A stretch of 24,286 nucleotides of DNA. It comes from a virus. This document shows, in pieces, positions 1 to 20,612 of this stretch (within the stretch, counting starts at the first letter, position 1; every line of letters begins with the position of its first letter). The notes under the pieces are model-generated. The model saw nothing but the letters and a program-made list of their open reading frames with translations, had not been told where the DNA came from and searched no databases. Position numbers and translations under genes: made by a program. The DNA is taken from positions 1 to 24,286 of the IMG/VR virus record IMGVR_UViG_3300034103_000972. The stretch is one strand, 5' to 3'.

Positions 1-1
1 A

Positions 2-121
2 GAACCATCTGATACTGATTGGGATGATTGCGGTGCAACTGCTCAATATTACTGGCCGCAAAAGAAAGTTGATGCAGGTAAATTTTGGGGCGATGTCAAA
101 TCGGAGTTGCAGTCTTTGTAA
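2..121 (+). CDS. 3' end of an unidentified gene (partial)
   Basis: An open frame enters from the left edge and stops at TAA 119-121, giving 39 C-terminal residues. They are rich in Asp, Trp and Tyr: a DTDWDDCGATAQYYWPQ-type stretch followed by a Lys-rich end. The codon use looks more GC-rich than in the following ORFs. I do not recognise the family and cannot see its start. A TATAACG-containing segment follows the stop at about 129. The frame has no internal stop, but the fragment is short, so confidence that it is coding is moderate. Confidence 0.55.
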   Translation, partial: EPSDTDWDDCGATAQYYWPQKKVDAGKFWGDVKSELQSL

Positions 122-186
122 GGTTGCGTATAACGATACTCAGATATATTTAGGTTTTCTTTTTAATATATACACTAAAATAAAAT

Positions 187-423
187 ATGAAGATGAAAGA
201 TAATAAACACATACAAAGTTTCAACGAACATCAAGAAAACTTGAATATATCTGATGTTAGTGGTAGTATTTCTACCGATAAATTAATTTCTTTTGTTGAA
301 TGGGTATCTCTATCTAATTGGAATTATAATGGAAATACTAAAACTTGGTATAATCATACAGAAACAATTTTTCCTTCAACAAAAGAATTAATAGATTTAT
401 ATTTTCAGAAATATTACCACTAA
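187..423 (+). CDS. Small hypothetical protein with N-terminal FNEH tag
   Basis: This encodes a 78-residue acidic/polar protein with no membrane segment and no family I recognise. Residues 1-20 carry an MKxKDNKHIQSFNEH-type start that resembles the start of the next ORF at 583 (RRLIDTFNQH). The C-terminal half is rich in Trp, Tyr and Asn. The start ATG at 187 is preceded by an A/T-rich leader containing ATATACACTAAAAT, nearly repeated upstream of 583. The stop TAA at 421-423 lies inside the left arm of the attC-like hairpin at 418-472, which is how integron cassette genes often end. Function is unknown. Confidence 0.6.
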   Translation: MKMKDNKHIQSFNEHQENLNISDVSGSISTDKLISFVEWVSLSNWNYNGNTKTWYNHTETIFPSTKELIDLYFQKYYH

Positions 424-472
424 CGTCCGATGATAAACAATCGTTTTAATGTTGTTTATCATTTGTTATGTG
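418..472 (+). other. attC-like imperfect hairpin (candidate recombination site)
   Basis: The central stem is perfect over 11 bp: ATGATAAACAA (430-440) pairs with TTGTTTATCAT (452-462) around an 11-nt loop. After an asymmetric spacer (GTCCG 425-429 against TT 463-464), an outer stem forms. There CAC-TAAC (418-424) pairs with GTTA-T-GTG (465-472), leaving T469 extrahelical. An outer box pair, an unpaired spacer, an inner stem and an extrahelical base are the layout of folded integron attC sites. The boxes only partly fit the R''/R' consensus. There is no U-tract after the stem, so an intrinsic terminator is less likely. Confidence 0.45.
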
Positions 473-536
473 TAGGTGTGGATTACTCACCACTAAACTT
501 CATTCAAAGAACTGAACAAAAATTTTAAAAGAAAAA
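465..536 (+). repeat. Left arm of imperfect inverted repeat around the 583-1053 gene
   Basis: The outer end GTTATGTGTAGGTG (465-478) is matched in reverse complement, 13 of 14 bases, at 1114-1127. The inner end AAAATTTTAAAAGAAAAA (519-536) is matched perfectly in reverse complement at 1063-1080. The middle of the arm is diverged. The arm begins inside the right half of the attC-like hairpin. Confidence 0.6.
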
Positions 537-582: not shown

Positions 583-1053
583 ATGAGTAAAGAAATGAGA
601 AGATTAATTGATACATTTAATCAACATATTATAAAAGAAAGTAAGAAGACAAAATACCAGTTATCTGTTGATAAGGAAAATGACAGATTACTAAATCTAT
701 ATCCTAATTTAAAATTTTCACCAAAATGGAACAACGAGTTTATTCCAAGATATATGGAAACTGACAATTTAACATTTGAAGAAGAATATAATAAATGGAA
801 GATATACTACACTAAACAATTATTAGAACCATTTATAAAATTTTACAACGAATACAAACCATATTCATATCCAAAAAGATTTGGTAATTATGAAATGTAT
901 TATAGTGATGATGTAAAAGAACAATTTGATAAAATAGTAAAAGGTGAGTTGTATGTTGATGAAGAGTTTCAAATACCAGATTCACCAATACGAAATTATA
1001 TGAAAATATATCATTTTGATAAAACAAACATTGACAATTATAATAAAAAATAG
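583..1053 (+). CDS. Hypothetical protein inside an inverted-repeat-bounded segment
   Basis: This encodes a 156-residue Lys/Tyr/Asn-rich soluble protein with no recognised domain, signal peptide or membrane segment. It starts with MSKEMRRLIDTFNQH, echoing the N-terminal tag of the protein encoded at 187. The middle is rich in aromatic residues. The ATG at 583 follows a TTAATATTTATATATAAACT-type leader shared with the gene at 187. The gene is flanked by inverted repeats (465-536 and 1063-1127) and by direct AGTGGGTGGGA repeats (536 and 1052), the second overlapping the TAG stop. The arrangement suggests a mobile cassette unit. The antisense frame at 833-1201 is a low-complexity shadow of this gene. 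Confidence 0.65.
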   Translation: MSKEMRRLIDTFNQHIIKESKKTKYQLSVDKENDRLLNLYPNLKFSPKWNNEFIPRYMETDNLTFEEEYNKWKIYYTKQLLEPFIKFYNEYKPYSYPKRFGNYEMYYSDDVKEQFDKIVKGELYVDEEFQIPDSPIRNYMKIYHFDKTNIDNYNKK

Positions 1054-1067
1054 TGGGTGGGATTTTT
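1052..1067 (+). repeat. Direct repeat AGTGGGTGGGATTTTT, copy 2
   Basis: This is the second copy of the G-rich 16-mer at 536-551. It overlaps the TAG stop (1051-1053) of the gene at 583. Its inner part runs into the right inverted-repeat arm. Confidence 0.55.
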
Positions 1068-1127
1068 CTTTTAAAATTTTCAACTGAAATGTTAATTAGA
1101 ACGATTAACGGAACACTTACACATAAC
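1063..1127 (+). repeat. Right arm of imperfect inverted repeat
   Basis: TTTTTCTTTTAAAATTTT (1063-1080) is the exact reverse complement of 519-536. CACTTACACATAAC (1114-1127) is the reverse complement of 465-478 with one mismatch. A short dyad, CGGAAC (1109-1114) with GTTCCG (1128-1133), places the ACATAAC box in its loop. The CACATAACGTTCCG string at 1120-1133 resembles CACTAACGTCCG at 418-429, so this arm may also be a degenerate attC-like site. Confidence 0.55.
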
Positions 1128-1192
1128 GTTCCGCAAACTTGCGAAGGCAAGGACTTAGAAATAAAAATTTTTAACTTAAAACAAATGTAAAT

Positions 1193-1414
1193 ATGAAACA
1201 CAATTTTTCAATTACCGCCTTAACCCTTGCTTTTGCAAGTTTGTTGTTAGTGGCTGGCTGTTCATCAGATGTTGGTGAAGTAAAATCAGGTGAAATAAAA
1301 TTCATTCCATTCACGTCAAATTATGCAATAGGTACAGATAGCACTATTGTAATAATTGACAGAGAAAGTGGTAAAACGCTAAATGTTATTGGTCGGCACT
1401 CAGCTTGCCACTAA
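1193..1414 (+). CDS. Small predicted lipoprotein
   Basis: This encodes 73 residues that begin with a typical lipoprotein signal. Basic MKHN is followed by a hydrophobic stretch (about residues 6-21) and a lipobox LVAGC with Cys23 as the predicted lipidated residue, then SS. The mature part is about 50 residues and has an Ile/Asp/Ser-rich stretch. The last residues (GRHSACH) are encoded where the next structured element begins, and the TAA stop lies in CACTAACTCCCCG. The ATG at 1193 is preceded by an AAATTTTTAACTT leader also seen before 1523. A surface lipoprotein encoded by one small cassette is typical of accessory gene arrays. Its specific function is unknown. Confidence 0.65.
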   Translation: MKHNFSITALTLAFASLLLVAGCSSDVGEVKSGEIKFIPFTSNYAIGTDSTIVIIDRESGKTLNVIGRHSACH

Positions 1415-1473
1415 CTCCCCGCTAAGTCTCGCTTAATCATCCATAACATTCCAATACGGTTATTATGGATGAT
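1409..1473 (+). other. Box-plus-hairpin element after the lipoprotein gene
   Basis: CACTAACTCCCCG (1409-1421) resembles CACTAACGTCCG at 418 and overlaps the lipoprotein stop codon. It is followed by an 11-bp perfect stem, ATCATCCATAA (1436-1446) with TTATGGATGAT (1463-1473), around a 16-nt loop. No U-tract follows, so this is not a clear intrinsic terminator. No GTTATGTG partner box is visible on the right, so the attC-like reading is weaker here than at 418. Confidence 0.4.
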
Positions 1474-2234: not shown

Positions 2235-2645
2235 ATGTGTTTCTATATTCACCCATTACATTGCCAACCTAAAACTACTACTAGAGATATGTTAGTATAT
2301 AAAATGCTTAATGCTAGTTATATAACTTATAATTATGAAACTCCTTTTACCTATTCAATTATAAAGTTAAATAAGCTAGTCATTGCTCGTCCTGTGTTGA
2401 AAAGTATTGATTTAGCTGTTAAATCCAAGTTTGGATATATAGATACAATAGAACAGGGGTGTATACATTCATTTAGTAGTATTAAAACAGCAAAAGATGC
2501 AGTTATATTCTACAATCGTTCATACAGAACCTTAGAGGTTTTTGAAGCTTATATACCAGCAGGAACGGATTATTTTTTCAATCCAAAAGATAAACAAATA
2601 GCTTCTTCTAGACTATTTATAACAGATAAAAAAGTAATATTTTGA
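2235..2645 (+). CDS. Conserved phage/bacterial protein of unknown function
   Basis: This encodes 136 residues. The pattern is MCFYI, then TTRDMLVYKML (about 16-26), a YETPFTY-type segment, GCIHSFSS (about 75-82), a FEAYIPAGTDYFF stretch (about 98-110) and a terminal IASSRLFI. I recall the same order of features (M-C-hydrophobic start, D-x-VYK, HSF, IPxGTxYY) from uncharacterised proteins in many phages and bacteria. No function can be assigned. The N-terminal Cys2 and the conserved His suggest a possible active or metal site, but that is speculation. The TGA stop overlaps the TTG start of polA, indicating translational coupling. Confidence 0.65.
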   Translation: MCFYIHPLHCQPKTTTRDMLVYKMLNASYITYNYETPFTYSIIKLNKLVIARPVLKSIDLAVKSKFGYIDTIEQGCIHSFSSIKTAKDAVIFYNRSYRTLEVFEAYIPAGTDYFFNPKDKQIASSRLFITDKKVIF

Positions 2646-4047
2646 TTTATTTAGTAACCGATCAATTAACTGCTTTTAACACTGAAGAATATAAAGTCCT
2701 TAATTCAGAACAATTTATTAAGGACTTTAATCTGACAGGAGAAATAGGAGTTGATACTGAAACTCAGGGATTCGATCCCTTTAAAAAGAAAATACTTACA
2801 CTACAATTAGGAAATTTTGATACTCAATATGTTATTGATGTTAACTGTATTAATCAAAAAGTAAACGAATTCATTGCAAAGGTTTTTAAAAGTACAGATT
2901 CAACTTTCTTATTTCAAAATGCTAAATTTGATTTAAGGTTCCTGATGCTAAAGAACTGGTGGCCTAAAAATGTATATGACACTTATTTAGTAGAATCAAT
3001 TCTGTATCATGGATTAAAATGGGAAGATTATCCTAAGTCTTTAGAGCATTTAGCTATGAAATACTGTAATGCCAAACTAAATAAAGATATAAGAGGAAAC
3101 ATACATTATCTAGGACTTACTACTGAAGTTATAAAGTATGCTGCAGATGACGTAAAATACCTTTCTTTGATAAAAGAGGCTCAAATGATTAAAGTCAATG
3201 AAGACAGACTAAATAATACTGTTTTAATTGAAAATGAATTTGTAAAATGCCTTTCTTATATTGAAATGTGTGGAATGCAAATTGACCCTGTTGCTTGGAA
3301 GACTAGAATGGAACATGATAAAGAGCAGTTAGTAAAATCTCTAGATACTTTAAATAACTTTATTTTAGACAATCCTAGTACTTTCTATAAATACATACAT
3401 AATCAACTTGACTTGTTTTCTGAAGGTCTTAAAGTAAGTATAAATTGGAATTCTCCTACACAAGTAGTTAATTTCTTTAAAGACCTAGGACTTAATCTTC
3501 TTACAAAAGATAAAAAGACAGGTAAGATGAAGTATTCTGTAGATGCAAAAGTGTTAACTCCTCAAGCAAATATAAATCCTGTAGTTAACATTTACTTAGA
3601 CTATAAAAGTCAAGAAAAACTTTTAGGTACTTATGGACAAAACTGGTTAGATTCAATTAATCCTAGTACAGGACGAATTCACACTCAGTTTAAACAAATG
3701 CTAGACACTGCAAGACTTAGTTCAGGAGGGAAAGACAAAAAGAATAGAGTAGAATATATTAACTTTTTAAACATTCCTCAAGATAACTCTATAAGAAACT
3801 GTATTGTTCCTAAGTCAGGTTATGTTTTTATTGATTCAGACTACAGTTCTCAGGAGCAAGTAGTTCTTGCAAATTTCTCTAAAGAACCTAAATTACTAGA
3901 ATTTTATGAAAAGAATTTGGAAGGTGGAGATATGCACACTTTTATTTGTAAAAAACTCTGGCCTGAGTTAGAACCTCTTCCTGTAGAAGAAATAAAAACT
4001 AAACATAAAGACAAAAGACACATGGCTAAGATTGCTGGGTTTTCGAT
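2642..4047 (+). CDS. polA: Family A DNA polymerase, exon 1 (3'-5' exonuclease and start of palm)
   Basis: This is the first part of the replicative DNA polymerase I-type enzyme. A DEDDy proofreading domain is complete: GVDTETQGFD (36-45) gives D38 and E40, NAKFDLRFL (93-101) gives D97, and YAADD (166-170) gives the Tyr and final Asp. The palm begins with motif A, FIDSDYSSQEQVVLA (396-410; metal ligand Asp in DYS). Motif B begins with RHMAK (459-463) and is cut by the intron inside codon 469. The start is TTG 2642 overlapping the previous stop; no in-frame ATG lies upstream of the exonuclease motifs. There is no 5'-3' exonuclease domain, as is usual for phage enzymes. Without splicing the frame stops at 4054. 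Confidence 0.93.
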
Positions 4048-4069
4048 AAACTAAATTTTAAATTTTTCG

Positions 4070-4091
4070 TATAAATAATAAAAAATTATTT
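4070..4091 (+). promoter_or_regulatory. TATAAATA box and start-proximal hairpin before the endonuclease gene
   Basis: TATAAATA (4070-4077) is identical to the T4 late promoter core. It overlaps a 7-bp hairpin, AAATAAT (4073-4079) with ATTATTT (4085-4091), ending just before the ATG at 4093. T4 intron endonuclease genes use a late promoter plus a hairpin to restrict expression. In DNA this AT-rich both signals may arise by chance. Confidence 0.25.
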
Positions 4092-4092
4092 T

Positions 4093-4827
4093 ATGCGATA
4101 TACACAAGAGACAGAGTTACATACACTTGAGCTTTATAGACAAGGTACTCCTATTAAAGAAATTTGTAAAATACTTGGAGTCTGGAAAGACTATCCATCT
4201 TTAATAGCTAAAAAACACGGAATTCAAAGAGGCTCTGGTAAATCTTTTAAGATAAAAGCTGAAAAGTTTTCTCAAAGAACTGCTGAAGCTGATTATTGGT
4301 TAGGCTACCTAATAAGTGATGGTAATCTTTCAACGAAAGGATATAGAATTTCAATAGCTTCAATAGATGACGAAGTTATCCATAAATTTATGAGATTTTT
4401 AGAGTTTGCTTCTATATTCGATAGAGGATACTTAAAAGAAGTCTATTTCTCTTCAAAACCTTTACACAAATATCTATGCTCTTTAGGAATAACTCCTAAG
4501 AAATCCCACACAATTAATCTAAAAGTTCCATTAAATAGGCACATTCTTAGAGGTATTATAGATGGAGATGGCAGTATTCACAATAAAAGAAAAGTAGTTA
4601 AAATAACTACAGGTTCAGTTGCATTAGGGAACCAAATTGTAGACTTTTTAAGAACTGTTAAAATATTTTCTTGTATAAGAAAAAGAGGAGCAGATAATTG
4701 TTGGGACGTTTGGATAGAAAGAAAAGAAGATTTCAAGAAGTTATTTGAATTACTATATAAAGATGTAAAATCTAGTGTGTATATGGAAAGAAAATTTAAT
4801 AAATTTGTCGCTTTACTAGGTAACTAG
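4093..4827 (+). CDS. LAGLIDADG homing endonuclease encoded in the polA intron
   Basis: This encodes a 244-residue site-specific endonuclease that would cut intronless polA and drive intron spread. An N-terminal helix-turn-helix (about residues 6-45) precedes two LAGLIDADG helices. The first is WLGYLISDG (69-77, acidic D76) and the second is HILRGIIDGDG (150-160, acidic D157/D159), so it is a single-chain, two-motif enzyme. The C-terminal part is basic. The ORF stands alone in the intron, starting 45 nt after the 5' splice site and ending about 20 nt before core-like sequence. Some LAGLIDADG proteins also act as maturases. Phage introns more often carry HNH or GIY-YIG enzymes. Confidence 0.9.
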   Translation: MRYTQETELHTLELYRQGTPIKEICKILGVWKDYPSLIAKKHGIQRGSGKSFKIKAEKFSQRTAEADYWLGYLISDGNLSTKGYRISIASIDDEVIHKFMRFLEFASIFDRGYLKEVYFSSKPLHKYLCSLGITPKKSHTINLKVPLNRHILRGIIDGDGSIHNKRKVVKITTGSVALGNQIVDFLRTVKIFSCIRKRGADNCWDVWIERKEDFKKLFELLYKDVKSSVYMERKFNKFVALLGN

Positions 4828-5054
4828 TATTGAAACATCGGGCAAAAACGGTGAAGGCTGGAATGCTAATACCGTGCTAATTTAATAGATAATACTATTA
4901 AACAGTGTAACGCATAGTGGATGAAACTTGTTAAAAGAATATAAACCACCAAGAGTGTCCGACATCCTAGATAGGATGAAAATGTATGCTGAACTTACAA
5001 GAAGTATTAATTGTAAGAACTGTAGGATAAAAAGCCTACAGGATAACAAAATTG

Positions 5055-5655
5055 AAACTACGGAGGGGTTGGAGCAACAATTGCTAAGAATCTCTCCATG
5101 TCTTTAGAAATAGGAAATCAAGTATATGAATCATATATGAAAGCTTTTCCTCAGTTAAGTGTCTATTTTACTAAACAAAAAACTAGAGCTCTTGCTAATG
5201 GTTATATATTAACTGATTTAATTACTGGGAGAAGAATTTATTTTAAAGACTACAAACGATATTTAGAACTAAAAGCGAGACTAACTCCAGAATTCTGGGA
5301 AGAATATAAAGCACTTGATAAACCTCCTCATTTAAGAAGTATTTTAAGAGAAATGCAACAACTTAAAGGAGAAATGGAAAGAGCTGCTTTAAATTATCCC
5401 ATTCAATCTGCAAGTGCCAGTATTACTAAATTAGCTTGTATATTTATATTTAAAGAAATTGAAGCAAGAGAGGCTTATTTTAAGATACTCTTTCCTAATG
5501 TAATACATGACCAAGTAATTTTAGAAGTCCCAGAAGATGAACAAGAGACTTGGTCTAAAATAGTAAAAGATTGTATGGAAAGGGCTGGAGAGCCTTTTTG
5601 TAAACTAGTAAAATTAAAAGCAGAACCTGAAATATTAAAACAATGGAAAAAGTAA
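5055..5655 (+). CDS. polA: Family A DNA polymerase, exon 2 (fingers and rest of palm)
   Basis: This completes the 668-residue polymerase (1406 + 601 nt = 669 codons with stop). It opens with the end of motif B, YGGVGATIAKNL, just after the intron. The conserved helical segment that follows includes FPQL and ALANGYILTDLTGRR-like residues (LITGRRIYF). Motif C is VIHDQVILEVPE, with the HD catalytic Asp for metal binding. An ATG at 5098 in this frame is internal and should not be taken as a separate gene start. The stop overlaps the ATG (5643) of the next gene by 13 nt, indicating translational coupling. Confidence 0.93.
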
Positions 5656-5933
5656 TAAAATTAAGCGACTTTATAGGGAAACATGTAGATTTACCTAGAG
5701 ACTGTTTTATTGGGTTACCTGTAAAAAGGATAGAAGCAGCAAATAAAGTTCCTAAAGGAGACTACAGATTACTCAGAGTATCTGATTATTTTAACGGAAC
5801 TGTATATCTTGCAGGATACCCTGAAACAAGTTGTACTGCAGGCTATTTTACAGTAAATATAGATGAAGCTGAAAGCTTTATTCAACAAGCACTTATGGAT
5901 AATAAAACTAATAAAATACTAGACTTAATATGA
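5643..5933 (+). CDS. Small hypothetical protein with C-terminal ILDLI tag
   Basis: This encodes 96 residues, soluble, with mixed alpha/beta character. A central segment, GDYRLLRVSDYFNGTVYLAGYP, looks like two beta strands. There is no recognised family. It overlaps the polA stop at the 5' end and shares ATGA with the next gene at the 3' end. Its last residues, NKILDLI, closely resemble the ends of the next two proteins (ISILDYIV and NYLDLIV), although the rest of the sequences differ. That suggests a common docking peptide. Its position directly after polA hints at an accessory replication role, which is inference. Confidence 0.7.
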   Translation: MEKVIKLSDFIGKHVDLPRDCFIGLPVKRIEAANKVPKGDYRLLRVSDYFNGTVYLAGYPETSCTAGYFTVNIDEAESFIQQALMDNKTNKILDLI

Positions 5934-6136
5934 AATTTAAAGTAGGAAATAAAGTAAGAAGAATTGCAGGCCCATCAGCACCTCTTACTATAGGAGAAGT
6001 ATACACTGTAAAAGAGGCTACTTTCTGTCATGTGGCATTAGTTGAAACTGGTGGGTGGTATATTGCGGACAATTTTGAATTAGCCCAAGATATTGTCGAG
6101 TCAAATCCAATAAGTATTTTAGATTATATTGTATGA
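5930..6136 (+). CDS. Small SH3-like/KOW-like protein with C-terminal ILDYIV tag
   Basis: This encodes 68 residues. The opening KFKVGNKVRRIAGPSAPLT, followed by GEVYTVKEA and ending in GGWYIADNFEL, is the strand pattern of small SH3-like beta-barrel proteins common in phages. They often bind protein or nucleic acid, but no specific function is known. The C-terminus ISILDYIV matches the tag on its two neighbours. The start overlaps the upstream stop (ATGA at 5930) and the end overlaps the next start, so the three genes form one translationally coupled set. Confidence 0.7.
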   Translation: MKFKVGNKVRRIAGPSAPLTIGEVYTVKEATFCHVALVETGGWYIADNFELAQDIVESNPISILDYIV

Positions 6137-10630: not shown

Positions 10631-11172
10631 GCACAAAGTTTTCAAATTTAAAAAAAGGAGAAGTTTTATCCGAGAGTCAATACTATACTGTAGAGAAAAT
10701 TCAAGGAGATAAAGTTCAATTATCCACAGACCAAGGTGAATCTGTAGTATTGGATAAAGGATATGTTGAATCTCTTCTTACTTCAGCAGAACAATTCTCT
10801 GAATCAGAAAATATTACAAAAACTGATGCAGCTGCAAAAATCCTTTCAGCAGCAGGAGTTGCTATGACAATTAACTTTAATAAGCAAGTAAAAGAAGCTG
10901 ATGTAACTAAAGAAGTTATGGCAGCTGTTACTGGAGCTTCTATTAAAGATATTGAAAAAGCAGTAAAAGCTGGAGTAAAGAAAGCTATTCAGGGTGAAGA
11001 ACGTACTATTGTTGGTAGACATCACGGAGATGTAACTGATTTAGGTCGTATTAATTTCATTGATATGAAACTAGATCGTGGAAATTCCAACTTTGATGCT
11101 AGATTAAGACAAGTAGACACTAGAACTGTCAATTGGTTTATTCTAAGAGGTAAAAAATACACAGTTAAGTAA
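10627..11172 (+). CDS. Conserved hypothetical protein between VWA and ATPase genes
   Basis: This encodes 181 residues. An N-terminal beta-rich part, LKKGEVLSESQYYTVEKIQ (about 8-26), reads like a small SH3-type barrel. It is followed by an Ala/Lys-rich helical region (about 63-130) and a C-terminal part ending in NWFILRGKKYTVK. I have seen similar proteins in Bacteroidetes phage early regions, with no established function. The tight overlaps (ATGA at 10627 and TAATG at 11172) suggest that it works with the VWA protein and the ATPase. Confidence 0.65.
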   Translation: MSTKFSNLKKGEVLSESQYYTVEKIQGDKVQLSTDQGESVVLDKGYVESLLTSAEQFSESENITKTDAAAKILSAAGVAMTINFNKQVKEADVTKEVMAAVTGASIKDIEKAVKAGVKKAIQGEERTIVGRHHGDVTDLGRINFIDMKLDRGNSNFDARLRQVDTRTVNWFILRGKKYTVK

Positions 11173-11870
11173 TGGCAAATTTAGTAGGTATCGTAGCTCC
11201 ATCAGGGAGTGGTAAATCGACTTCTATTTTTAAAAACGAAAAATTAAATATTAAAGGTCTTGATCCGTCCGAGACTATAATAATTAATGTTTCAGGTAAG
11301 CCCCTACCTGTAAAAGGAGGCAACACTCTATTTCCAATTAAAAGAATTTCTGAGGGTGGTCGTCAAGTAATTACTTCTGATGCTAAGCAAATAGCTGAAA
11401 TAATCAGACAAGTAAATGACAAAGTTCCAGAAATTAAAAATCTAGTTATTGATGATGCTCAGTATTTACAAGCCTTTGCTTTTATGAGTAAAGTAAGAGA
11501 AAAAGGTTATGATAAATTTTCTGAAATCGGAGAGATTGGATTTATTCCTGTTAGAGAAGCTTCTAAGTGTACAAGAACTGATTTAAATATCTTTTTCTTG
11601 TATCACGAAGAAACAGACAAAGCAGGAAACAAAAAGATCAAAACTGCTGGTAATATGATTGACCAGTATATTACTATGGAAGGTATGTTTACTGTTGTGT
11701 TATATGCCAAAGTAGAGTATGATCTTATTAAAAAAGAATCTAAGTATTATTTTATGACTAATACTGACGGTTCAAACACAGCAAAAAGCCCAGTAGGAAT
11801 GTTTGATGACCTCCTAATTCCTAATGATTTGGGTTATGTAAAAGACAAAATGGAGGAATATTACAACTAA
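11172..11870 (+). CDS. P-loop ATPase, Sak4/RecA-like
   Basis: This encodes a 232-residue RecA-fold ATPase. Walker A is APSGSGKST (9-17) and Walker B is NLVIDDAQYLQ (90-100). The following IFFLYHEE strand fits a sensor position. The family includes the Sak4 single-strand annealing/recombinase ATPases found beside phage SSB genes, and the SSB-like gene lies two genes downstream (12189), which supports this. The likely role is recombination or annealing on ssDNA. Short size and the lack of DNA-binding loops visible by eye leave other AAA-type roles open, including partnership with the upstream VWA protein. Confidence 0.78.
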   Translation: MANLVGIVAPSGSGKSTSIFKNEKLNIKGLDPSETIIINVSGKPLPVKGGNTLFPIKRISEGGRQVITSDAKQIAEIIRQVNDKVPEIKNLVIDDAQYLQAFAFMSKVREKGYDKFSEIGEIGFIPVREASKCTRTDLNIFFLYHEETDKAGNKKIKTAGNMIDQYITMEGMFTVVLYAKVEYDLIKKESKYYFMTNTDGSNTAKSPVGMFDDLLIPNDLGYVKDKMEEYYN

Positions 11871-11883
11871 TTAATTAATTATC

Positions 11884-12162
11884 ATGGAAGTAAAAGTTTC
11901 AAGAACACAACTCCAAGCTGACATTGAGGCTGGAATGAAAAAAGAAGCACTAGCTGCTAAGTACACACAAGGTAATAAATCAGCTTTGACTGGTTTGTTG
12001 AAAGACGCAGGATTGCGTATTAAACAGTTTCGTGTAAATAAACCTAAGTATACTTTGGTAGACACAATTGAAACTGCAGATATGACTGCTACAGTACAAT
12101 CAGAAGAAAATTCTTTTGAGAAACTGAAAGAAATTCAAGAGCGCAACAATTCAATGGCTTAA
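11884..12162 (+). CDS. Small HTH-like protein
   Basis: This encodes 92 residues. The N-terminal half (VSRTQLQADIEAGMKKEALA and onward, about 4-45) has the helix-turn-helix pattern of phage proteins that read A-A-x-Y/F then a recognition helix, here AAKYTQGNKSALTGLLK. It continues with a GLRIKQFR segment, so DNA binding is plausible. The C-terminus is acidic and helical. The gene has its own 13-nt A/T leader rather than an overlap. The minus-strand frame over the same bases is a shadow. Target and role are unknown. Confidence 0.6.
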   Translation: MEVKVSRTQLQADIEAGMKKEALAAKYTQGNKSALTGLLKDAGLRIKQFRVNKPKYTLVDTIETADMTATVQSEENSFEKLKEIQERNNSMA

Positions 12163-12188
12163 TTAAATTTTAAAAACACTACATCATT

Positions 12189-12794
12189 ATGTTTGGAAAT
12201 GACAAAGTAGAAGTCTCCGAAGGAGGAGGCTCAAAGTATCTTGGGTATGGTAATCATCTTGCTGCTATCACAGGGTTTGAAGTTAAAACTTCAAAAGCAG
12301 GAGATGCATGGCAAGTAATTTTACACATTGAAACCCCTACTATAACAGAAGAAGGTTTTAAAGCTGATGATTCTGCTGTTCGTGGAGGAAGAATTGGTAA
12401 AGTAAAACTTGCTGATACTTATTACAAAACTGAAGAACAAATCAGAAGTTTTGATGGACGTATGCAGCTTATTGCTAAAAAGCTAGGAGCTGAAGAAGCT
12501 CTTATTGCTGCTAAAGCAGGAGCTCAATCTATTGAAGAATACATGAATCGTGTACTTCCCGTAATTAAAAATAAAGACTTGTACTTACAATGCTGTGCAA
12601 AAGAATATATAAAACAAGATGGCAAAATTGGAACTACTCTTCACTTAGGTTTTAAAAAGTTCTGTGCGTCTCTTGCTGAAGGTGTATCTCATATGGATGC
12701 ATTCGATAAAGAAAACAAATACCATTATACTAAGGTGACTCCTGCTGAAGAAACTCCAGCTAATGAAACACCTACTAATAACAGTGTATTTTAA
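12189..12794 (+). CDS. Probable phage ssDNA-binding protein
   Basis: This encodes 201 residues. A Gly-rich start (SEGGGSKYLGYGNHLAAITGF) leads into an OB-like beta segment, AWQVILHIETP (about 37-47). The middle contains KVKLADTYYKTEEQI and a long helix. The tail is disordered, acidic and Thr/Pro-rich and ends in NNSVF, with the terminal Phe typical of SSB tails that recruit replication partners. It resembles phage SSB-like proteins encoded beside Sak4 ATPases (DUF669/DUF2815-like), but no signature is decisive. It has a 26-nt leader and is followed directly by a terminator-like hairpin, consistent with high expression. Confidence 0.65.
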   Translation: MFGNDKVEVSEGGGSKYLGYGNHLAAITGFEVKTSKAGDAWQVILHIETPTITEEGFKADDSAVRGGRIGKVKLADTYYKTEEQIRSFDGRMQLIAKKLGAEEALIAAKAGAQSIEEYMNRVLPVIKNKDLYLQCCAKEYIKQDGKIGTTLHLGFKKFCASLAEGVSHMDAFDKENKYHYTKVTPAEETPANETPTNNSVF

Positions 12795-12806
12795 TCATTA
12801 ATTTTT

Positions 12807-12832
12807 AAGGGTGGTAGAAATACCACCCTTTT
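12807..12832 (+). terminator. Strong intrinsic terminator-like hairpin
   Basis: AAGGGTGGTA (12807-12816) and TACCACCCTT (12821-12830) form a perfect 10-bp stem capped by a GAAA tetraloop. The downstream U-tract is short (TTTT overlapping the stem end). It lies 12 nt after the SSB-like stop and only 10 nt before the primase ATG at 12841, so the primase operon must depend on readthrough or on a promoter further upstream. A GTG inside the right half of the left arm is not a gene start. Confidence 0.85.
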
Positions 12833-12840
12833 ATATCACT

Positions 12841-13875
12841 ATGTTTCAAGCAGATCAGGTTTCGTTTCAAGAACTTTCAGTTGCTAATATAAATAAATTA
12901 GTAGACTCTGAACAAATCTTTGAATATTATATTGGGAGTTCATTTAAACAGTCTAAAAGAATAAGTAGTCCACTTAGAAAAGATAATACTCCTTCTTTTT
13001 CTGTATTTAAAAATCCTTATGGAAAATACTTATTTAAAGATTTTGCTACTGGACAATCAGGAGATTGGGTTACATTTATAAGACTTAAATATAACTGCAC
13101 GTTTCCAGAAGCCCTTCAAATTGTTAATAATGACTTTAATCTGAAATTAGGTCAGTTTCAAAAAACTATTAAAGTAGGCTCTACTGCAATAATATCTCAG
13201 TTTAATATAACTAAACCTAAAGAAACTGTAATAAGAATCTCTAAAAGAGATTGGAATCAACTTGATTTAAATTACTGGAATTCTTTTGGAGTCAGTATAG
13301 AGACTTTAAATAAATTCAATGTAGTTCCTGTGGATAAATATTGGCTTGAGGGACATGAATTTAATTGTAAAGAAATTACATATGCTTACATGTTTGGAGA
13401 CTTTAAATATAAAATCTATGCTCCTTTAGCTGAAAAGGCAGGATATAAATTTATTTTTAATGGTTCAGATCAAATTATACAAGGAATAAAAGAACTTCCA
13501 GAATACTGTTCTTGGTTAGTAATAACTAAAAGTATGAAAGATGTTTTGTTGTTTCATGATTTAGGAGTACCAGCAATTTCTCCTCATTCAGAGACTGTAG
13601 TACTTTCTGAAAATATAATGAATTACCTTTACTCTATCTCAGGAAGAATATTTTCTTTGTTTGATTATGATAATGCAGGAATTCATTTAGCTTGGCAGTA
13701 TAGAAAGCTGTATGGAATAAAACCGTTATTTTTATCAGAGGGAACATGGAAAAGAAAACTAGGATATAAATCTGCAAAAGATATTAGTGACTATTATAAA
13801 TTATATGGCAAAGAAGCAACCAAAGACCTTATCACAGAGAGAGCTTACAAAGAAAACATTAGGATTACTTTCTGA
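12841..13875 (+). CDS. DnaG-like primase with degenerate zinc-binding domain
   Basis: This encodes 344 residues from ATG 12841; a longer frame from GTG 12811 would begin inside the hairpin. The N-terminal domain (about 15-100) follows the DnaG zinc-domain pattern, SPLRKDNTPSFSVF (43-56) then FKDFATGQSGDWVTFI (65-80), but the Cys/His ligands are gone. The TOPRIM domain has VITKSMKD (227-234), where the usual Glu is replaced, then LFDYDNAG (273-280) and KDISDYY (313-319). It would prime the DnaB-like/PolA replisome. The 3' end overlaps the next gene by 71 nt. Confidence 0.85.
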   Translation: MFQADQVSFQELSVANINKLVDSEQIFEYYIGSSFKQSKRISSPLRKDNTPSFSVFKNPYGKYLFKDFATGQSGDWVTFIRLKYNCTFPEALQIVNNDFNLKLGQFQKTIKVGSTAIISQFNITKPKETVIRISKRDWNQLDLNYWNSFGVSIETLNKFNVVPVDKYWLEGHEFNCKEITYAYMFGDFKYKIYAPLAEKAGYKFIFNGSDQIIQGIKELPEYCSWLVITKSMKDVLLFHDLGVPAISPHSETVVLSENIMNYLYSISGRIFSLFDYDNAGIHLAWQYRKLYGIKPLFLSEGTWKRKLGYKSAKDISDYYKLYGKEATKDLITERAYKENIRITF

Positions 13876-14461
13876 TGAAGAGCTATTTTTCTATTATTAC
13901 TTAGAAGAATTAAAAGAAATAGGAGTAGTTAATAATTTTAATACTAAATGTAAATCTTTTCAACTAAGTCCACGTGTTGAGTATCCTTTTTATACTATAA
14001 AGAAAACAAAAAAAGGTACAACCTCCAAAGAAGAGTTCAAGACAGTACTAAATGAACACGTATATACTCCTGATTTTGAAGTAGATTGGAATTTTCGAAG
14101 TCCCTACATTCACTATTTTGTTTCAGGACGTTTAAATCAGCTAAGAAATCCATATACAACTTACCCTATAAATAAAGAAATTCCTTTTTATTCTCTGAGT
14201 CCTCAACCTTACATGTGTATTGAAGTAAAACCTGCTTTTGACCATCAAGGTATGCAAAGACTTTTTAGTGTTAACCAAAAATGGATTTATCATAATCACA
14301 AAATTTATGTTCAAAAGATTATTCCTCAGACTCTATTTGAAAAGACTTTTACGCCAAAGAAAGTTATAAATGACCCTGATATGATTTACAAAGTAGGTAA
14401 AAATATAGGTCAATCGAAAATTAAATGGCAAATTAAAACCTTAGAAGAGTTTATTAAATGA
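13805..14461 (+). CDS. PD-(D/E)XK nuclease-like protein
   Basis: This encodes 218 residues from ATG 13805; a GTG at 13787 would add six residues. The nuclease signature is YTPDFEVDW (87-95), giving the Asp, and CIEVKP (138-143), giving the E-x-K. A long loop and then QKWIYHNHKIYVQKI (158-172) follow, resembling the final strand and helix of restriction-like folds. It is probably a structure-specific or resection nuclease in phage recombination, though substrate is unknown. The 71-nt overlap with primase in another frame is long, so the true start may lie further in. It is coupled to rIIA by ATGA. Confidence 0.72.
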   Translation: MAKKQPKTLSQRELTKKTLGLLSDEELFFYYYLEELKEIGVVNNFNTKCKSFQLSPRVEYPFYTIKKTKKGTTSKEEFKTVLNEHVYTPDFEVDWNFRSPYIHYFVSGRLNQLRNPYTTYPINKEIPFYSLSPQPYMCIEVKPAFDHQGMQRLFSVNQKWIYHNHKIYVQKIIPQTLFEKTFTPKKVINDPDMIYKVGKNIGQSKIKWQIKTLEEFIK

Positions 14462-16890
14462 AAATTGAAAATGAAGAAATTTTAAAAACTGCAGGAGATA
14501 ACTTAGATTCTATTCAAGCAACTGTAGACTCTGAGAAGATGTCTAAGATGTTTTGGATGTTTTCTAATTTATACAAGGACGTACTAGGCTCTATAATAAG
14601 AGAGTATACTAGTAACTGTTTTGATTCTCATGCAGAAGCAAAAGTAGATGATCCAGTAGTCATAAAGCTTGTAGAAAGTTTAAATACTGGAGATTATTTT
14701 ATAAGCTTTATTGATGTAGGAGTAGGGCTTTCTCCCTATAGAGTACAAAATATCTTTATGAAGTATTTATCTTCTACAAAAGAAGATACAAATGACCAAA
14801 TTGGTGGTTGGGGTATGGGTTCAAAGTCTGGACTTGCTTATCAAGATAAAATCCATATTCAAACTATATTTGAAGGTACTGAATGGACATATATTTTACA
14901 CAAAGGAGAAACTGGAGTCCCTACTTTAGAAAAACTACTTGAAATTCCTACTACAAAAAGAAATGGTACTACAATTACTATAAAATTAAACAAATCAGAT
15001 TCATACAGTGTATATGCAAATTTGAAAACTCAGTTGAGGTATTTTGATAATGTATATGTAGACGATCAAATTCTGAAAGGTCTCTTTGAAAATAAGTATA
15101 CAATATACGAAGGTAAATATTTCAAGTTTAATACCGTTAATCAACCCACTCAGACAGAAATTGTTTTAGGTAAAGTTAGATATGCAATTGATTTTCTGCA
15201 ACTAGGTATAGAAACAAAGTATATACCTATTGCAATAAAATTTGACATAGGTGAACTTCAAGTTACTCCTTCAAGAGAAGATATTCTATATTCTGCTGTA
15301 GCTAAACAAAAAATTATTGACAGAATTAAAATGGCTGAAGATGAGTTAGTTGAACTTTTCAACAAAACATATAATCCAGTTATTTCAATAAAAGATTGGT
15401 ATGATAATAAATCTCAACAATATATACATGAGTTTCCGTGTGGAGCTACTATTAATTTAGAGAGGGTTTTAAAAGATCATCCAGAATTTACTCCAATCTA
15501 TTGTCCTGAAATTGTTGAAATAGGTAATGAATTCGGTGAACTTAAATCAAAAGCAATACTTAGAAATATACTTAGTTTTTCATTTGAAACTGTATATGCT
15601 CAAGTTGCTTTTGAATACAGATCTCTTCAAAATAAATTTATTCAAGCTCCTGGATATAACCAAGTTAAATACAAGTACTTTACAGAAAATTATCAAAGTA
15701 GTAATGTAACTTTTTTAAGACATGATCCTAATAACAATAAAGTAAATAGTAAATACACTAACTTATATGTTTCAGAGCTTATAAGGACAAGTCAAATTAC
15801 AATTCGAATTTCTATTATAAAACCTGCACCTCACAGATGGATTCTAAAAAATATAATAAAGTACATAAACCTTCAAATAGGTATTGTAGCTACAAATAGA
15901 AAAAACTCTAAAGGAAAAACTTTATATAGAAGGGTTTTTGAAATTTTACAGCTTTTATCTCCATTTGATCCAAGTACAATTAAACCTTATTCTACAATTG
16001 TACCCTCTGAAGCTTGGATAAAAGAATATAAAGAGAAAAATGCAGCAGTTGTACAGAAAAAAATAGATTCAACTTCTTACTTAAAAATAAATGTAAGTAA
16101 TGATTCCACTTATTTTCATAGTCATGGATGGTCATTAGATCATTGTACAGTTTCTCATGCTTTTATGAACTCAGCTAAAAAGCTAGTTATATTGGGAACA
16201 GAAGAATCATTAGCTACAAATTTCTTAACTCAACTTTATAATGATCATTACCATAAAATTTTAGGAAGACAACTTTCTAAAAAAGCAATAGCAAAATTAA
16301 AATTACATTTTCCGTTTTTGTATGGAATCGCTTCTCAGTCAGAAATAAAAGCACTAAAAAAGAACAATGTCAAATTTAAAACCCTTTCAGAGTACATGAC
16401 AACAGAATTTAGTTCTCCAGAGCTACTTAAATTTTTAAAATGGAGAAGACTTAAAAAAGCCTTCACAGAAGCTGATATAAGAATGTCACATACATTCCTA
16501 GAAACTATTAGAAAGGACTTAGGTGTAGGACTTTTATCTTTAAAAGATTTCTTAGAAAATAGAGCTTATTCTCCTCAAGTGCCGTCTTTTGTACAAGAAC
16601 TAATTGAAATTGCAGACAAAAAAGCTGAAGAAGCGGGTTATTTTAATAATCTAGATGAATTAAATTTAATATCAGAGCTAGTAAAAATACAAAAATCAGC
16701 TCCTATGTTAATGTTTATTCAAAGATTAGATTTTACAGATCAATTTGCATTAGATGCTTTAAGAGATTACTGCAAAAAATCACAGGTAAAAATGGACTCA
16801 CATCATTACATTATCAAAACCTCAGTACCTGAAAAGTCCTCTGAGGAAACAGAGATTTTAGAAACAATAGAAAATGAAGTAACTGAATGA
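14458..16890 (+). CDS. rIIA: rIIA-like protein (GHKL ATPase)
   Basis: This encodes 810 residues, close to the usual rIIA length. An N-terminal GHKL ATP-binding domain shows the N box IIREYTSNCFDSH (46-58, with E49 and N53), the G1 box FIDVGVGLS (84-92) and the G2 box GGWGMGSKSG (116-125). The rest is helical with an acidic C-terminus. T4 rIIA with rIIB blocks abortive infection by lambda RexAB and affects lysis timing and DNA metabolism. The pair is widespread in unrelated phages, and its biochemical activity is unsettled. rIIB follows directly (ATGA overlap at 16887). Confidence 0.88.
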   Translation: MKIENEEILKTAGDNLDSIQATVDSEKMSKMFWMFSNLYKDVLGSIIREYTSNCFDSHAEAKVDDPVVIKLVESLNTGDYFISFIDVGVGLSPYRVQNIFMKYLSSTKEDTNDQIGGWGMGSKSGLAYQDKIHIQTIFEGTEWTYILHKGETGVPTLEKLLEIPTTKRNGTTITIKLNKSDSYSVYANLKTQLRYFDNVYVDDQILKGLFENKYTIYEGKYFKFNTVNQPTQTEIVLGKVRYAIDFLQLGIETKYIPIAIKFDIGELQVTPSREDILYSAVAKQKIIDRIKMAEDELVELFNKTYNPVISIKDWYDNKSQQYIHEFPCGATINLERVLKDHPEFTPIYCPEIVEIGNEFGELKSKAILRNILSFSFETVYAQVAFEYRSLQNKFIQAPGYNQVKYKYFTENYQSSNVTFLRHDPNNNKVNSKYTNLYVSELIRTSQITIRISIIKPAPHRWILKNIIKYINLQIGIVATNRKNSKGKTLYRRVFEILQLLSPFDPSTIKPYSTIVPSEAWIKEYKEKNAAVVQKKIDSTSYLKINVSNDSTYFHSHGWSLDHCTVSHAFMNSAKKLVILGTEESLATNFLTQLYNDHYHKILGRQLSKKAIAKLKLHFPFLYGIASQSEIKALKKNNVKFKTLSEYMTTEFSSPELLKFLKWRRLKKAFTEADIRMSHTFLETIRKDLGVGLLSLKDFLENRAYSPQVPSFVQELIEIADKKAEEAGYFNNLDELNLISELVKIQKSAPMLMFIQRLDFTDQFALDALRDYCKKSQVKMDSHHYIIKTSVPEKSSEETEILETIENEVTE

Positions 16891-19872: not shown

Positions 19873-20612
19873 AAGAAATATTAATAGAAAAATTAGGCTT
19901 GGGTTGGTATAATCAGCTCAAGCCTTTTTTGGAAAGTGAAGAGTTCACTAAACTGAATGAGTTTATAAGAAGAAGAAGAAGTGCAGTTGCAGTTTATCCA
20001 GAGTCAGATAACGTTTTAAAAGCTTTTAAAATGACTCCATTTGAAGAAGTTAGAGTAGTGTTGTTAGGTATGGATCCTTACCCTAATCCTAATGAAGCTA
20101 TTGGATTATCTTTTGGAATTAACTGGCAAAAGGTAAGAACTATTCCACCAAGTTTAAGGAATATTCATCAAGAGCTAGAAAAAGATTTAAATGTTCTTGC
20201 TTTAGACTTTGATTACTCTCTAGAACATTGGGCAAAACAAGGAGTATTACTTTTAAATACTGCTTTAACTGTGGAGCATAAATCTCCTTCTTCTCATATT
20301 AGTCAGTGGGCTCCATTTAATACACAAGTTTTTAAAGCTCTAAATAACTTAAATGGAATAATTTATATTTTACTTGGAAGAGAGGCTCAAAAATTTGAAA
20401 GTATGATAAATGCTAAATCAAATTACATAATTAAAGCTCCTCATCCTGCTGCTGAATCTTATCAAGGAGGTAATGCAGGATTTTTTGGAAGTAAAATATT
20501 TAGTAGAACAAATGAGTTTATAAAAGGGCAAAACGGAGCTGATTACACAATTAATTGGTCTGGCCTTAGTGAAGTTGAAGTTAGTGATGATGGGTTGTAT
20601 GATCCATTTTAA
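19869..20612 (+). CDS. ung: Uracil-DNA glycosylase, family 1
   Basis: This encodes 247 residues that remove uracil from DNA by cleaving the N-glycosidic bond. The water-activating motif is VLLGMDPYP (64-72) with catalytic Asp69, against the usual GQDPYH. The uracil-recognition strand is GVLLLNTALTVE (125-136) with Asn130. The intercalation loop is HPAAES (192-197) with the catalytic His192, followed by GFFGSKIFSRTN. The Gln-to-Met and His-to-Pro changes in the first motif are notable. The start is GTG 19869, overlapping the upstream stop. It is the last gene before a structured intergenic region and terminator. Confidence 0.92.
   Translation: MKEILIEKLGLGWYNQLKPFLESEEFTKLNEFIRRRRSAVAVYPESDNVLKAFKMTPFEEVRVVLLGMDPYPNPNEAIGLSFGINWQKVRTIPPSLRNIHQELEKDLNVLALDFDYSLEHWAKQGVLLLNTALTVEHKSPSSHISQWAPFNTQVFKALNNLNGIIYILLGREAQKFESMINAKSNYIIKAPHPAAESYQGGNAGFFGSKIFSRTNEFIKGQNGADYTINWSGLSEVEVSDDGLYDPF

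Follow-up and report, generated by a model that had tools for sequence, protein, structure and literature searches.

Three attC-like sites at the end of a phage contig

The window analysed here is a stretch of 24,286 nucleotides, the IMG/VR virus record IMGVR_UViG_3300034103_000972. It carries replication and lysis-control genes, including a family A DNA polymerase, a DnaB-like helicase, a primase and an rIIA-like protein. Positions 1-1415 contain three attC-like sites (cores 131-259, 421-468 and 1124-1249), which bound at least three cassettes (Table 1). The sites lie within 1.2 kb and no integrase accompanies them, which is the layout of a CALIN; the likeness is one of layout only, the sites not being canonical attC. 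No recombinase was found among the window ORFs examined, and neither a site nor the attI consensus was detected downstream of the terminal R'' box (array end 1412). The only relative of this phage that was found is one distant contig (28% in the helicase), and the left edge of the array is not extendable. The window probably holds the end of an array, with three cassettes, in a fragment of a lytic-type phage, and its recombinase might be encoded elsewhere in the genome or supplied by another phage. The polymerase gene of the window is in two parts (2642-4054 and 5098-5655) flanking an ORF with a LAGLIDADG domain (4093-4827); the region 2642-5655 may be read as a homing-endonuclease intron or a similar insertion.

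Table 1. Features of the window array and of two related arrays in huge phages
Feature	Position	Strand	Description
End of earlier cassette	1..130	+	ORF fragment ending in GKFWGDVKSELQSL, stop at about 119-121; truncated by the contig end; stops immediately 5' of the R'' box of site A
attC-like site A	131..259	+	TAAC...GTTA core; stem arms 140-161 / 233-254 (inverted repeat I3)
Cassette 1 ORF	187..423	+	78 aa, leader and body; C-terminus YYH; the stop codon is the TAA in the following R'' box
Site A R' arm, 5' end of cassette 1 body	249..273	+	Pairs with 407-431 (I1, 25 nt, 88%)
R'' arm closing cassette 1	407..431	+	Complement of 249-273 (I1)
attC-like site B, 5' end of cassette 2	421..468	+	418-472 including boxes; from the fold, the stem finder and model R1
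Site B R' arm	465..479	+	Complement of 1113-1127 (I11)
Cassette 2 ORF	583..1053	+	156 aa; N-terminus MSKEMRRLIDTFNQHIIKES
Cassette 2 3' untranslated stretch	1036..1128	+	Terminates in R'' box; common to other cassettes, homology stops at TAACG
attC-like site C	1124..1249	+	Stem arms 1134-1152 / 1225-1243 (I8)
Cassette 3 ORF	1193..1414	+	73 aa, lipoprotein-like; stop is the TAA of the terminal R'' box
Terminal R'' box of cassette 3	1401..1415	+	Partner 1246-1260 (I14); followed by TCCCCGCTAAG
Array in huge phage LR745206.1 (L110)	11095-12904		
Array in huge phage LR756500.1 (L111)	12541-15898		

The inverted repeats I1, I11 and I14 each join the start of one unit of the window to its own end. 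Site A contains the start codon of the cassette 1 gene and its leader (MKMKDNKHIQSFNEHQENLNISD followed by V), and the circular form of this site folds at -27.0 kcal/mol. Homologues of site A occur in 16 recombinase loci (see below), with the homology starting mostly at 129-131. Copies of site B were present in 33 of the fetched phage loci beside different genes, with core identity up to 100%; homology to it starts at 420-421 in most matches. The start codon at 1193 and the coding sequence of a lipoprotein signal peptide (MKHNFSITALTLAFASLL followed by LVAGC) lie inside site C, whose circular form folds at -30.4 kcal/mol. The cassette 1 ORF gave a single weak Pfam match below threshold; no family match was obtained for the cassette 2 ORF, and no Pfam match for that of cassette 3. 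The untranslated stretches of cassette 2 (480-600 and 1036-1128) recur in cassettes with other ORFs, as if ORFs might also be swapped within a constant frame.

Folded structure of site B

An earlier note on this DNA had described a folded 55-nt element at 418-472, and the structure was borne out. The single-stranded DNA fold of 408-482 has a free energy of -9.9 kcal/mol, compared with -4.8 +/- 2.0 in dinucleotide shuffles (z -2.5), and the RNA fold of the same segment gave z -2.85. The inner stem exists, with 12 bp (GATGATAAACAA/TTGTTTATCATT, one G.T included) and not the 11 bp first counted. The asymmetric spacer (3 unpaired nt on the 5' side only, then TAACG/TGTTA) and the overlap with the preceding stop codon (TAA at 421-423, the stop of ORF 187-423) were likewise found as described. 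The 'extrahelical base' in the outer stem CAC-TAAC/GTTA-T-GTG, however, proved to be an artefact of pairing boxes from two different cassettes. The true partner of GTTATGTGTAGGTGT (465-479) is ACACTTACACATAAC (1113-1127), which is complementary over 15 nt at 93%; refolding of site B with this partner gave -19.6 kcal/mol and an unbroken 16-bp outer arm.

A covariance model (R1) was trained on 44 other sites, none of them from the window. Across the whole 24-kb window it matched 415-472 at 35 bits (E 4e-8), and no other match was better than E 0.06. The weak match at 20003-20070 (14.3 bits, E 0.06) lies within an ORF and is probably due to chance. Sites A and C, which have long central loops, are missed by the model, and were detected by a stem finder and a repeat search. 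An Rfam scan of 1-2500 returned no relevant family.

Site arrays beside a tyrosine recombinase

A pattern scan revealed the identical element in two further phage contigs, each time behind a different gene, and in one of them (L004) a tyrosine recombinase gene is located 1.4 kb downstream (3112-3921). A large terminase gene adjoins this recombinase (3910-6120, minus strand) and, by sequence reading, appears to have an intein-like insertion near its N-terminus. A pattern scan of genome contigs gave 8 matches, none with the inner stem of the window; the match in another contig (L003) was rejected as chance, its centre being unrelated.

Relatives of the L004 recombinase were found in 178 IMG/VR stretches, and 80 of these loci, picked by recombinase similarity and including near-copies, were fetched and studied; for the main counts, only distinct contexts were used. 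The hairpin finder demanded only TAAC...GTTA and an inner stem, and left the outer flanks free. Because it was tuned on these loci, its counts are to be judged by the controls (downstream side, reverse strand and shuffles). There were 327 hairpins (0.67 per kb) upstream of the recombinase and on its strand. Downstream the number was 17 (0.025 per kb), the opposite strand had 9, and shuffled sequences gave 0. Where at least 3 kb of upstream sequence was available, 48 of 50 loci had sites and 46 had two or more; the densest array has up to 17 sites in 10 kb. Many copies with different ORFs between them support the proposal of the earlier note that the hairpin belongs to a divergent, unrecognised attC class in a phage region, and copies beside different genes rule out a lone structure that always accompanies the same gene.

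Structure of the sites and the signature of cassette circles

In integrons, the R' box before a cassette derives from that cassette, and its pairing partner is the R'' box of that same cassette rather than the apparent one in the hairpin. The phage arrays have the same relationship. Among 226 distinct consecutive pairs, the R' box of one site and the R'' box of the next were 69-87% complementary at positions 1-6 and 8-11 beyond the core; per position, complementarity was about 80% with the box at the cassette's own end, versus about 30% (background) with the adjacent hairpin. Position 7 is complementary in just 5% of the box pairs; the aligned boxes suggest a conserved G.T pair there, and the inner stem has another (columns 29/49, 35 of 44 sites). 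Such G.T pairs favour folding of the coding strand, which was the more stable one in 234 of 242 reconstructed circular sites (-22.6 vs -18.4 kcal/mol). Moreover, 16 of the 22 stem pairs showed two-sided compensatory change.

The sites are imperfect inverted repeat hairpins with R and L boxes and a variable centre, as attC sites are. Their core is NNMTAAC / GTTANNN, which differs from the integron R-box consensus RYYYAAC / GTTRRRY; the deviation of the boxes remarked on earlier for site B holds generally, GTTRRRY being present in 16 and RYYYAAC in 15 of 242 sites.

The mobile unit

Comparisons between loci indicate which neighbour a site belongs to. Pairs of sites with near-identical hairpins had a common downstream flank in 65 cases and a common upstream flank in 2. 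Of 16 pairs of homologous cassettes whose previous neighbours differ, 13 kept the same 5' site; among the pairs in which the two 3' sites were comparable, 6 shared the 5' site only, 2 both sites, 2 neither, and 0 the 3' site only. Cassettes up to 100% identical were found between unrelated neighbours, with breakpoints at TAAC. For example, the cassettes at L014 6614 and L080 2132 are identical in 309 of 309 bases with random flanks; those at L019 9011 and L034 583 agree in 955 of 956 bases, and those at L068 7996 and L090 7545 in 405 of 414. The shared flanks and exact transfers indicate that the mobile unit is a site plus the gene that follows it, bounded somewhere within TAAC. The classical polarity, in which a site belongs to the cassette of the preceding ORF as attC does at the 3' end of its gene, was therefore dropped; the assignment of the hairpin at 418-472 to the small ORF before it is contradicted by the flank and cassette comparisons, since the site travels with the downstream gene.

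The leader MKDNKHIxSFNxHQENLNISD is found nearly unchanged on unrelated bodies at L013 8268, L024 8052 and position 187 of the window. One leader on unrelated bodies means that exchange at the R' box, or inside the leader, must also occur, and recurrent leaders of this kind would be beyond the simple rule that site and body move as one.

Arrays could also be shuffled by ordinary homologous recombination between the repeated sites, with the recombinase as a bystander; phages recombine readily, copies of a site are often 90-100% identical, and the recurrence of leaders on unrelated bodies would fit. This explanation is very improbable. The boxes at the two ends of a cassette are complementary even where the hairpins differ, which is a mark of circle excision; the breakpoints fall at the 4-nt core and are not spread over the repeat; and the sites gather on a single side and strand of the recombinase, together with an attI-like site.

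Cassette genes and leaders

The loci yielded 323 units, of which 315 had a forward ORF of at least 40 aa; these fell into 240 clusters, 194 of them singletons. The longer ORF was on the plus strand in 303 of 323 units, and the cassette genes are directed toward the recombinase. Most belong to no known family. Among the matches obtained are several DNA methyltransferases, an RNA ligase, exonucleases and an acetyltransferase.

In 112 of 315 units (about a third) the start codon is within the site, and the last residues of an N-terminal leader are therefore encoded by the right arm of the hairpin (for instance NLNISD followed by V, QLNIGA followed by V, or AFAYV followed by LLVA). The core is read in phase 0 in 64 cases, in phase 2 in 28 and in phase 1 in 4; phase 1 would make GTTAG and GTTAA a stop. 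Some leaders look like lipoprotein signals, and others, on reading, seem similar to the sequences that target internal proteins of T4 to the capsid. Of 21 of these contigs, 7 have a prohead protease of T4 type. It might be hypothesized that the leaders target proteins.

The enclosed start codons also bear on whether the hairpins are ordinary gene-end structures, such as intrinsic terminators or RNA processing signals, conserved by happenstance. Hairpins of this type would be intergenic and stable as RNA, as these are; whereas a gene-end structure would not be expected to enclose the start codon of the next gene, to have arms that pair across cassettes instead of inside the visible hairpin, or to mark the breakpoints at which whole cassettes are exchanged, and no Rfam family was matched. 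A gene-end role is extremely unlikely.

The attI-like half-site and the recombinase

A half-site, TAACTATTATATAT, is conserved 5' of the recombinase gene, and NNNTAACTATTATATATAAACAAGT or a close variant lies at most about 100 nt before the recombinase start in most loci. It has the form NNNTA/AC-TATTAT-ATATAAACAAGT (slash, putative cut) and separates the last cassette from the start codon of the recombinase. To the right of its TAAC the sequence is conserved; the sequence to the left, the tail of the last cassette, varies. The conserved NNNTAACTATNATATAT beside the recombinase gene is accordingly a putative attI site. On the recombinase strand the order of box, spacer, second box and recombinase gene is that of integrons, and only the cassette genes run the other way. 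Since the cassette genes face attI and the recombinase, a Pc promoter located there could not drive them.

The earlier note had also named, as possible support, a nearby tyrosine recombinase with the integron-specific insert. The recombinase (PF00589) does stand beside the arrays of the related loci, though none is in the window, and the insert is missing. The protein has a Phage_integrase and an N-terminal SAM-like domain, and the XerA and integron integrase models match it below cut-off. R136, K161, H219, R222, H245 and Y254 are invariant. From KG(K/R)KDR to HTLRH there are 58-60 residues in 46 phage recombinases versus 107 in two IntI proteins, and the alignment with IntI4 splits in two at the position of the I2 insert. 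The best structural matches of an AlphaFold model (pLDDT 83.7) were XerA and IntI4. The phage recombinases form one clade (support 98/94) in a tree with long branches and unsettled bootstrap, in which the flavophage integrases (Cellulophaga phage Ingeline, Polaribacter phage Freya) are the sister group. These integrases and XerA or XerC-XerD have the same fold and length and also lack I2; however, the flavophage integrases share at most about 40% identity among full-length phage records, and no site arrays were found in the flavophage loci examined. The nearest plasmid matches, tyrosine recombinase loci associated with tet(X3) (about 49%), were rejected, no such sites being present.

Taken together, the hairpin is very probably the recombination site of mobile cassettes in an integron-like system of phages, whose hosts are probably Bacteroidota. 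In the related phages the array lies directly upstream of a XerA-like tyrosine recombinase, and each cassette consists of one site and then one gene, ending at the next R'' box. In the proposed mechanism, the recombinase would cut the coding strand of the folded sites between TA and AC; cassettes would leave as circles with perfectly paired arms and insert at attI or at other sites. A site 5' of a gene could bring with it a promoter, a ribosome-binding site, a start codon and an N-terminal leader, and with these signals a captured gene might be expressed at once as leader plus body.

The same shuffling might proceed by double-stranded recombination of the Xer/dif type, which differs from the above mechanism in its chemistry only and needs no folded single strands. 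The recombinase is nearest to XerA/Xer types and has no I2 insert, and the R box, spacer and L box of attI are like a two-box core site; on the other hand, the inner stems covary and are conserved as structure, and the conserved G.T pairs make the coding strand fold better. We regard the double-stranded route as unlikely.

Occurrence in huge phages and plasmids

Related arrays occur in two huge phages, LR745206.1 (634 kb, 4 sites) and LR756500.1 (462 kb, at least 8 sites). No adjacent recombinase was found in either of them, and only an 88-aa fragment was present, in LR756500, far from the array. By sequence reading, the L110 cassettes encode D12-type and C5-type DNA methyltransferases.

Arrays were also found on plasmids of Flavobacteriia. 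The Flagellimonas marinaquae plasmid NZ_CP092416.1 (L108 5892-8801) has two related sites that bound a gene of the dihydrofolate reductase family and erm(F), with an I2-less xerA gene immediately after them; the R' box GTTGGCATT pairs with AATGCCAAC, and GTTATGCGG pairs with CCGCATAAC. The erm(F) gene there has the appearance of a cassette in an integron-like array of Bacteroidota. The Chryseobacterium sp. SNU WT5 plasmid NZ_CP041688.1 (L106, L114 and L115) carries several sites beside an I2-less 'integron integrase', and its successive boxes are complementary; its cassette genes and sites are on different strands, which is also the arrangement of canonical integrons.

The huge phages and the window, in which arrays occur and no intact recombinase of this family was found, raise the question of whether phages are passive carriers of host attC cassettes (CALINs), which a host IntI with I2 recombines. 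Phages are known to carry canonical attC sites and CALINs, some of which IntI1 can recombine (PMC9892861). Yet elsewhere the arrays adjoin a phage recombinase that is dedicated to them and comes with an attI-like site of its own, few of their R boxes fit the consensus, and the sites are 5' of their genes; passive carriage is thus held to be highly unlikely.

Relationship to known systems

Integrons are known as gene-capture platforms of bacteria and, lately, of archaea. Compared with bacterial and archaeal integrons (PMC9668308), the phage system likewise has an array beside a tyrosine recombinase and an attI-like site upstream of its gene. The folded sites are of the R''-spacer-L''...L'-R' type, the cassette ends are complementary to their own R'', the cassettes are highly diverse, and both attI and the sites are ordered NNNTA/AC-spacer-L box on the recombinase strand. 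The phage system differs in having no I2 insert, R boxes off the consensus, genes facing the recombinase, and sites at the 5' end of the gene, often around the start codon and leader. Since the layout, the attI-like site, the circle signature and the diversity are those of integrons, whereas the I2 insert, R boxes and gene polarity are not, the system is, as judged from sequence, an integron variant and not an integron sensu stricto. No earlier description was found in a search of published papers, few of them from subscription journals.

The phage integrons and CALINs of Qi et al. 2023 (PMC9892861) also include arrays in lytic phages and DNA methyltransferase cassettes; they were found by canonical attC and IntI models, whereas the arrays described here have the phages' own I2-less recombinase and attI-like site. 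Single-strand recombination in integrons is attributed to the I2 helix, which is said to occur in no other protein and for which no intermediates are known (PMC7790495). CTX phage is a precedent for an I2-less Xer tyrosine recombinase acting on a folded single-stranded site; however, its genome integrates at dif, and cassettes, attI and arrays are absent (PMC7790495). A large natural integron-like family without I2 would make the origin of integrons directly testable, and phages would own a cassette-shuffling engine and not merely carry bacterial cassettes.

A more far-reaching idea, which we put forward tentatively and consider somewhat doubtful, is a second integron lineage in Bacteroidota phages and plasmids, with an I2-less enzyme that recombines folded single-stranded sites and with sites that provide both the start codon and a targeting leader. 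Candidates for such a leader are a secretion signal or a tag like the capsid-targeting sequence of T4. If so, phages could swap injected or exported proteins as ready-to-express cassettes. The cassette DNA methyltransferases could guard against host restriction; the other cassette genes are mostly of unknown kind. The Flavobacteriia plasmid arrays, one of them with erm(F), point to a way of capturing genes in Bacteroidota that models of canonical attC sites might miss.
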